Origin: Acetobacteraceae bacterium
GTDB lineage: Bacteria; Pseudomonadota; Alphaproteobacteria; Acetobacterales; Acetobacteraceae
NCBI GenBank assembly: GCA_027482245.1
Contig: JAIXWG010000038.1
Location: 124,001 to 188,000 of the forward strand
DNA length: 64,000 nt
Reading direction: 5' to 3'
Of the stretch, positions 29,660-32,438 are shown piece by piece. The position numbers were made by a program, and so were the translations under genes. The notes under the pieces were generated by a model. The model had not been told where the DNA came from and made no database searches. It saw only the letters and a list, made by a program, of their open reading frames with translations. Position 1 is the first letter of the stretch; each line of letters starts with the position of its first letter.

Positions 29660-30735
29660 CGGCGGGGCGGCGGCTGCGCGTGCTGATCGTGGATGACAGC
29701 GCGGCGGTGCGCGCGGCCCTGACCCGGATCATCGAGGACGCGCCCGACCTGGAAGTCATGGCGACCGCCGGCGATCCCTTCATCGCCGCGCAGCGCATCG
29801 CGCAGGAACTGCCGGACGTCATCATCCTCGACATCGAGATGCCGCGGATGGACGGCATCACCTTCCTCCGCCGCCTCATGGCGCAGCGGCCGATCCCGGT
29901 GGTGATCTGCTCCTCGCTGGCCGAGGAGGGGTCGGAGACGCTGCTGCAGGCGCTGGAGGCCGGCGCGGTGGAGGTGGTCGCCAAGCCGCGCATGGGATCG
30001 GCGCAGTTCCTGGCGGAATCGGCCGTGCGGGTCTGCGATGCGCTGCGCGCCGCCGCCCATGCACGGCTCGGCCGTCGTATGGCGCCGCCACGCAGCGTGG
30101 AGCGCAAGCTGAGCGCGGATGCGATGATCCCCCCGCCGAGTGGCCGCGCCATGGCCCGTACCACGGAACGGATCGTCTGCATCGGCGCCTCCACCGGCGG
30201 GACGGAGGCCCTGGCCGAGGTGCTGACCGCCTTGCCCGTGGACAGCCCGGGCATCGTCATCGTGCAGCACATGCCCGAACGCTTCACCGCGGCCTTCGCG
30301 CGGCGCCTCGACGGGCTGTGCCGGATCGATGTGAAGGAGGCGGAGGATGGCGATGCGGTCCTGCCCGGTCGCGCCCTGATCGCGCCGGGCAACCGGCACA
30401 CGCTGCTGACGCGCAGCGGCGCCCGCTACTGCGTGGCGGTGAAGGACGGCCCGCTTGTGTCCCGCCACCGCCCGTCGGTGGACGTGCTGTTCCGCACCGC
30501 CGCGCAATATGCCGGGCGCAACGCGCTTGGCGTCATCATGACCGGGATGGGCGATGACGGGGCGCGCGGGCTGCTGGAGATGCGCCGCGCCGGCGCCGCG
30601 ACGCTGGCGCAGGACGAGGAGAGCTGCGTCGTGTTCGGCATGCCGAAGGAGGCGATCGCGCTGGGCGCGGCGGAGCGCATCCTGCCGCTGGACCGCATCC
30701 CGCAGGCCATCGTGGAGTTGCGCGCATGGACATGA
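29656..30735 (+). CDS. cheB: Protein-glutamate methylesterase CheB
   Basis: 359 residues: receiver domain 8-125 with acidic pair D13-D14 and phospho-acceptor D59 ([13 protein letters not shown]), linker, then methylesterase domain from about 170. The catalytic triad is visible as Ser in [11 protein letters not shown], His in IVQHMPERF and Asp in [10 protein letters not shown]. It removes receptor methyl groups and may deamidate glutamines when phosphorylated by CheA. It overlaps cheR by four bases and the next gene by ten. Confidence 0.95.
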
Positions 30736-32438
30736 TGGCGCCCGCCCTGCGGGAACTCCGCGACCGCCTGGCCCCCTGTTTCGCGCCGGTGGATTCCGAA
30801 TTCCTGGCCGCGGGGGCGCAGCTCGGCGATGCGATCGGCTGGCTTGCCGGCATCCGCGACGGGCTGGGGGACCTGAGCGCGGCGCTCGATCGGCCGGAGG
30901 TCTCGACGGCCGCCGCCACGCTGGATGCGGCCGCGGGCGAGATCGCCGCGCTCGCCACGCGGCTGGAGGCGGAGGCGGCGGCGATGGCCGCGCTGGAGGC
31001 GCCGCTGGAGCGCATCGGTGGCTGCCTCACCGCGCTGCTGGAGGTGAACCGGGGGCTTGCGCAGCTTTCCGTCAATTCCGCCATCGTCAGCAGCAGCATC
31101 GCCGATGAAGGCGGCGATACGCTCAACTTCGCCGTCGAGATCCGGTCGCTGCTCAAGGCCGCCGGGCAGGTGATGCACGGCTATGGGGAGGCGCAGGCGG
31201 CGGCGCGGCGCGAACTGGCCGGCGCGACCGCGGCGCATGCGGCCTTCCGGCGCCAGCAGGGGCCGCTGCTGCGCGACGTCGCGGCGCGGATCCGGCGCGG
31301 CATCGGCGAGGTCGCTTCGCGCCAGCAGGCGGTGCGCCGCGCCGCCGGCACGGTGCAGGAACGCGCGGACCGCGTGGCGTCGGCCACGGGCGTCACCGTC
31401 GCCGCGCTGCAGGTCGGCGACGCCACGCGGCAGCGCATCGAACACGTCGTGGACGGGCTGGATGCGCTGGCCGCGGGCCTGGATGGGGCGGAGCGCCCCT
31501 GGTCCGCCGGCCTCGCGCCCGATGATCGCCATGCGCTGGCGCGGCAGGGCATGGCCCTGCAGGCGGCGCTGCTGCAGGGCGCGGGGGCGGTCTTCGGGGC
31601 CGAGGTCGCGCGCATCTCGACGGCGCTGGGCCAGCTGGGCGGGGAGGCGCGCGGCATGGTGCAGGACGGCGCCGCGCTCTTCGGCCACGCCGGGGCCGCG
31701 CAGGCCGGGCGCACCTCCTTCCTCAGCGCGCTGGAGCGGGACCTGGAGACGGCCTCCGGCCTGCTGGCGGAGGCCGGGGCGCGGCGGCGGGAAGTGGACC
31801 TGGCCATGGCCGCGATCGAGGCCATGCTGGCCACGCTGCATGACGGGCTGGCCGCGGTCAGCGGCGCGGCGGTGGATCTGCGGCTCGTCGGGCTGAACGC
31901 CGCCTTCCGCTGCGCCCGCCTGGGCCCGCGCGGCGTGGCCCTGGCCGCGATCGCGCGCGAGTTGCGCGCGCAGGCCTGGCAGATGGCGGAAGGGGTGGAG
32001 GCGCTGTCCGGCGCGGTGAAGGAAGCCGTCGCGGCCGGGGCGGCAATCCGCGCCGCGGATGGCGCGGCCGATGCGCTGGTGGCGACGACTGGCGCCATGC
32101 AGGGCAGCCTGGCGACGCTGCGGGAAGCGGGCGGCGTGATGGACGCGGCGATCGGACGGCTCGGGGAGGATGGACGGCGCGCGGCGGATGCGCTCAGCGC
32201 CATGTCCGCCGGCATCGCGGCGGTCGCGCAGCTCACCGGGCTGCTGGACGGCGCCGCGGCCGAGCTGGGGCTGCGCGTGACGGGCGGCGTGGAGGCCGAA
32301 CCGGAGCTCCTCCAGGCTCGGCTCGGCCTGGTGCACGGCGTGCCCTTCACCATGGTGCAGGAACGCGAGATAGCGCGCCGCTTCGGCGCCGACATGCCGG
32401 AGCCCGAGGCCGTGGAAGCCGACGACCTGCTGTTCTGA
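30726..32438 (+). CDS. Che-operon coiled-coil protein with receptor-tip-like and CheZ-like motifs
   Basis: 570-residue Ala-rich helical cytoplasmic protein with no membrane segment; I do not recognise a named family. Two segments resemble degenerate chemoreceptor signalling tips: [16 protein letters not shown]...[12 protein letters not shown] (115-146) and [14 protein letters not shown]...[12 protein letters not shown] (387-417). Between them [14 protein letters not shown] (229-242) contains D232-x3-Q236, the spacing of the catalytic Asp143/Gln147 pair of CheZ. The tail ADDLLF (565-570) recalls the CheY-binding C-terminus of CheZ. It starts within cheB (ribosome site GGAG before 30726) and ends the operon. 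A CheY-binding or phosphatase role is inference. Confidence 0.8.

Follow-up and report, generated by a model that had tools for sequence, protein, structure and literature searches.

In the CheZ mechanism of chemotaxis signal termination, Q147 acts together with a water molecule and D143 acts together with K109 in the dephosphorylation of CheY-phosphate (CheY-P). CheZ is a homodimer whose two hairpins form a four-helix bundle. CheT is a short protein that carries the same DxxxQ spacing. It has been reported from Sinorhizobium/Agrobacterium as a DxxxQ phosphatase other than CheZ, encoded in an alphaproteobacterial che cluster and resembling CheZ in its AlphaFold prediction, and the portion of that report drawn on here makes no mention of a receptor hairpin (PMC12654446). 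Engineered single-chain chemoreceptors, according to the part of their description considered, have two receptor units per chain (PMC4692393). Our study deals with the window, a stretch of 64,000 nucleotides from an Acetobacteraceae bacterium (assembly GCA_027482245.1, contig JAIXWG010000038.1, positions 124,001 to 188,000), and with the 570-residue protein X (P0001), encoded at 30726..32438 on the + strand in an open reading frame (ORF) that is open throughout and forms the terminal gene of a che operon, as an earlier, preliminary description of this DNA had stated. From its sequence, X is probably a phosphatase for CheY-P of the CheZ type that has a chemoreceptor signalling hairpin as its scaffold and serves specifically the CheY encoded in the same operon. 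X has in common with CheZ (PF04344) the catalytic-helix core D-x-T-x-Q-R (VGDATRQRI in X, FQDITGQRI in the CheZ of this taxonomic family), an acidic-hydrophobic C-terminus and recognition by a profile of its module. It differs in being about 2.5 times longer, in having two receptor-like hairpins and an eroded second site, in lying inside a che operon and in giving no PF04344 match. With CheT, compared by description only, it shares the non-CheZ DxxxQ site; in comparison to the engineered single-chain receptors, as described in the part considered, X is natural and has a DxxxQ site (PMC4692393). CheO of Campylobacter was also considered by description only, and the part of its report used gave nothing tying it to X (PMC9665402).

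The phosphatase reading rests on four observations: the D/Q pair is invariant, a profile made free of CheZ recognises 11 CheZ genes, the tail is conserved and the linkage to cheA is unlike that of CheZ. The D/Q pair and the ADDLLF tail had been pointed out in the preliminary description and both are present. The pair reads D232-A-T-R-Q236 (31419-31433) and lies in a helix of residues 228-241 (31407..31448, +). D232 and Q236 are invariant across 29 aligned relatives (alignment A2, formed from a phmmer set of 27 proteins including X, less two partial proteins and one of 817 aa, plus five genome copies). Invariant positions amount to 17 of 570 in this alignment, and six of them (Q229, D232, Q236, R237, E239 and H240) fall within the 12 residues Q229-H240. 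Alignment A3, whose 29 protein rows include three more distant sequences and two partial ones, still shows Q229, D232, Q236, R237 and E239 as invariant. DxxxQ in one sequence was rejected as proof, because composition shuffles of X give it readily (mean 1.32, with at least one in 74% of 2000 shuffles), and it is the conservation that forms the evidence. The C-terminal ADDLLF (32418..32435, +) is a candidate CheY-docking (or CheR/CheB-docking) peptide; the terminal F is found in 27/29 relatives and the form acidic-x(1,2)-hydrophobic-F in 26/29. Among the relatives, WP_161915527.1 of Methylosinus sp. C49, a plasmid-borne protein labelled 'hypothetical protein', has a motif reading ALQIGDNTRQRVEHV and the C-terminus LDDILFA, and its gene closes the same cheA-W-MCP-MCP-W-R-B order (MCP, methyl-accepting chemotaxis protein). 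A plasmid search with X matched one record, and a pattern scan of the genome contigs gave two relatives only.

Structurally, X is a tandem duplication of one module, in which a chemoreceptor hairpin is followed about 115 residues on by a Q(F/V)(Q/G)DxxxQ helix, with an acidic-LF tail at the end. The D/Q pair is intact in the first copy only and the second site is eroded. The echoes of the receptor tip claimed earlier at residues 115-146 and 387-417 were borne out, as both halves match a family of single-copy, MCP-like proteins in profile comparison: residues 20-264 with probability 98.9 and E 9.8e-18 (reversed 0.5, E 0.11) and residues 265-535 with probability 97.3 and E 2.6e-11 (reversed 2.7, E 0.017). 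The N-half and C-half profiles matched each other at 95.4%, E 1.7e-8, with a reversed control that was not clean (42%, E 2.6e-4), so coiled-coil composition accounts for part of this score. The first tip (31068..31163, +) belongs to a degenerate hairpin with model helices 57-128 and 131-227. The second tip (31884..31976, +) and that of Tsr align in register; phmmer of X against the PDB found Tsr at E 0.04 (1qu7). From the tip Asn to the D, X has a spacing of 115 residues, and the single-copy relative P0031 one of 117. The AlphaFold2 model of X consists of long helical hairpins (pLDDT 88.6, pTM 0.70); that of P0031 is of lower confidence (pLDDT 77.2, pTM 0.44). Foldseek of the X model against the PDB gave nothing at E<=0.001, its top rows being TTYH and MCP structures, and VIA-align of both models placed MCPs among mixed helical bundles, with CheZ absent from the matches listed, which excludes nothing.

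Hairpin and tip are the features that X shares with MCPsignal (PF00015) proteins, and it could accordingly be a cytoplasmic chemoreceptor or an array structural member modulating CheA, its DxxxQ helix being structural or a contact to CheW, CheA or CheD and no phosphatase site. We regard this as unlikely, since the tips are eroded (R395 aligns with the tip glutamate of Tsr, NAAVEAAR) while D and Q stay invariant, and since the module profile matches few MCP controls (4/64). The degenerate tips argue that X is no ordinary receptor any more. Unlike MCPsignal proteins, X carries the DxxxQ site and the LF tail, and X alone has no Pfam match up to E 1, MCPsignal and CheZ included, so that no HAMP or sensor domain was found.

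Beyond the preliminary description lie the internal duplication with one intact D/Q pair and a large single-copy family. The A2 profile over 190 genomes of the class added at least two full-length genes (G123, G115); the matches listed also include eight shorter ORFs (L085-L092; 354-547 aa) that align to model positions 7-266. All eight pass the PF00015 cut-off and belong to che operons, and their products combine x-QFQDRxxQ with an (E/D)LF tail. P0031 (named 'MCP', 415 aa) has the same plan and also passes that cut-off, P0027 being below it (27.5 vs 34.6 bits); with PF04344, P0031 gives a sub-threshold match (E 0.0016, 18.8 bits vs a cut-off of 30.7). Querying with the C-terminal 131 residues of P0031 gave 216 proteins; among the 120 of them listed, the motif in its strict form occurs in 114 and the [IV]E[LF]F end in all 120, the latter count being biased towards tail retention because the tail is inside the query. 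Named members among these matches are from Paucibacter (P0071) and a Terracidiphilus metagenome-assembled genome (P0111). Single-copy relatives are present elsewhere among the alphaproteobacteria and in further classes of the phylum, and are named 'MCP' where the sources name them; X-type genes were also found outside the class but inside the phylum (L115, L116, L117 and L121). In an alignment of 49 single-copy proteins (41 hand-chosen from the 120 listed, plus L085-L092), Q332, D335, Q339 and the final F415 are invariant.

The conservation of the acidic-LF tail also bears on two other explanations. X may be a non-catalytic adaptor or sink for CheY-P (or CheB-P), its tail and helix keeping a receiver domain near the array, and the overlap of its gene with cheB, whose product too has a receiver domain, would suit such a role. 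D and Q are however both strictly invariant in the 29 and 49 relatives, seemingly beyond what binding needs, and this explanation is held to be quite unlikely. Alternatively, the tail (e.g. NIELF) could be a receptor-type CheR/CheB tether, with X acting mainly in adaptation. The NWETF-type pentapeptide has an aromatic residue at its second position, which the tail lacks, and such a role leaves the D/Q invariance unexplained. The tail does sit at the extreme C-terminus, the gene lies directly after cheB in 5/8 of the loci L085-L092 and directly before cheY in 3/8, and CheR binding is reported for CheT, a further DxxxQ protein of alphaproteobacteria, in the part of its description considered (PMC12654446); even so, the tether appears improbable, and the phosphatase remains the favoured reading.

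The link of the module to CheZ was assessed with profile A6, made of 26 module segments, none of which was taken from CheZ. Module and CheZ profiles matched at 73.8%, E 2.9e-5 over 84 columns with D and Q in register, the 49 CheZ proteins having themselves been chosen by a D-x-T-G-Q pattern, which lessens the weight of the match. Reversed modules gave 1.0% (E 0.053) and 3.1% (E 0.014), and the N-module of the window family alone gave 28% (E 6.3e-4). At >=10 bits, A6 recognised 49/49 CheZ proteins, 0/49 reversed CheZ and 4/64 MCP controls, one of the four being X-type (LQFQDRVSQ). When only the three invariant residues of A6 were masked, 34/49 CheZ and 5/64 MCPs still reached 10 bits.

Genomic placement provides the further evidence. 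Over 104 genomes of the class, A6 at E<=1e-5 found 27 genes, of which 16 are X-type, with the motif confirmed by reading in all of them, and 11 coincide with PF04344 CheZ genes. On the same contig and within 10 kb (72 cheA genes; 74 CheZ genes, including three under the Pfam cut-off), a cheA accompanies 15/16 X-type genes vs 4/74 CheZ genes. Half of the X-type genes (8/16) are seeds of A6, chosen by sequence, and among the non-seed genes 7/8 are near cheA. None of the 72 cheA genes has both an X-type and a CheZ gene inside 10 kb; inside 15 kb there is one, in the host genome. This genome has three X-type genes, on contigs C2, C49 and C62, and they are near three different ones of its six cheA genes. 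Two of its three CheZ genes stand directly after a cheY, with no cheA of their contigs within 10 kb, a placement much like that of the CheZ gene in Azorhizobium, so far as the part of the source considered describes it (PMC8429497). Genomes bearing X have on average 2.4 cheA (13 genomes with cheA), and 36 others have 1.1. The simplest reading would be that CheZ serves a CheY encoded away from cheA, and that X serves the one encoded in its operon. The two further X-type genes of the host, G000:C49:124718 (L135) and G000:C62:108559 (L136), lie in separate che clusters, adjoining a cheY.

Several results weigh against the phosphatase reading. The full-length window family matched the CheZ profile at just 8.5% (E 0.0039). 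With the 11-residue core of A6 masked, 1/49 CheZ and 7/64 MCPs were left at 10 bits; the similarity is thus confined to the catalytic-helix core, and convergence is possible. In the opposite direction, a CheZ HMM reached 10 bits for 9/61 X proteins, 1/29 window-family proteins and 1/64 MCPs. X itself lacks any PF04344 match up to E 1, and the NCBIfam CheZ model is well below its cut-off on X (E 0.067, residues 197-249 aligning with 143-195). Among the 50 matches of A6 to PDB sequences up to E 10 are coiled-coil proteins and one MCP represented by two entries; none is a CheZ. In the X model the helix is interrupted at 228-229, immediately ahead of D232. Finally, CheZ is encoded elsewhere in 14/15 X-bearing genomes tested, so X is no genome-wide replacement, and its role as a genome-wide CheZ substitute was rejected. 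Hence the resemblance of X to CheZ is specific but short, a shared catalytic helix arising through descent or convergence, with common descent unproven.

The preliminary description suggested that X may use a receptor-like coiled coil either to dephosphorylate CheY or to bind it as an adaptor, in a lineage from which classical CheZ is generally absent. The first part is still the best-supported reading of the sequence. The second part fails: PF04344 passes its cut-off at three loci of the host genome, in 33/60 genomes of the taxonomic family and in 41/104 of the class, and with three CheZ genes in the host genome alone the idea of a lineage lacking CheZ was rejected. In the profile search suggested there, X itself matched neither PF04344 nor PF00015 up to E 1.

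A mechanism may be proposed by analogy with CheZ. The two hairpins of X would pack as one four-helix bundle, so that a single chain, with one site, would mimic a receptor dimer. Q236 would enter the active site of CheY-P and orient the attacking water, D232 would pair with K104, the conserved lysine of this CheY, and CheY-P may be captured by the flexible acidic-LF tail. Least certain is the part of the receptor-like region, which might dock the phosphatase at the receptor array or couple its activity to the array state. More tentatively, there may be a widespread class of receptor-derived CheY-P phosphatases, an operon-embedded signal terminator in many proteobacterial systems without their own CheZ, whose scaffold makes dephosphorylation an array function or puts it under the control of the signalling state; in this lineage, gene duplication would have produced a natural pseudo-dimer within a single chain, one of its sites being live and the other dead.

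X apparently belongs to a family without a name that stands beside cheA genes lacking a nearby CheZ. No description of the X-type family was recognised in the open-access literature searched, which is weak evidence of novelty since subscription papers were mostly outside its scope. The family is a candidate for the CheY-P switch-off in che systems without linked CheZ, CheC or CheX, such as those of many alphaproteobacteria. Its members are labelled 'hypothetical protein' or plain 'MCP' in the sources, so receptor counts may include phosphatases. If the phosphatase reading is true, a sensor scaffold has been turned into a signal-terminating enzyme.

The operon has the order STAS-cheY-cheA-cheW2-MCP-cheW-cheR-cheB-X on the + strand. 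The STAS-domain protein is its gene 1 (23363..23674) and the likely substrate, a CheY with a single receiver domain that is canonical by its residues (D8, D9, D52, T82 and K104), follows at 23671..24033. CheA (25991 being its last position, from 24030) is followed by a second CheW, cheW2 (25991..26440), with 78% identity over 140 aa to the cheA-adjacent CheW in L082, an MCP with 4HB_MCP, HAMP and MCPsignal domains (26471..28312), CheW (28327..28809), CheR (28778..29659) and CheB (29656..30735), whose 3' end overlaps the X ORF by 10 bp. The gene 3' of X encodes a zinc alcohol dehydrogenase and starts at 32541. To our knowledge a STAS-domain protein heading a che operon is unusual; the gene is retained in the relatives L079-L084. 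A single MCP gene follows cheA here, and a tandem pair is found in L081-L084 and on the Methylosinus plasmid.

Some minor observations were also made on the family and the locus. An invariant T-M-x-x-E-R element sits about 20 residues before the tail of X, where residues 541-547 (32346..32366, +) read F-T-M-V-Q-E-R with T542, M543, E546 and R547 invariant, and it is echoed in some single-copy relatives as YTMKEER (L085, L087) and YVMHSQR (P0031). An MCP-like protein encoded in L126 (907-2109) combines LQFQDRVSQ with the tail DITFF; its ITFF ending recurs in L120, L122 and L123, which suggests that the family has another branch. An arylmalonate decarboxylase-like gene (PF17645) is located at 22527-23270, upstream of the operon.
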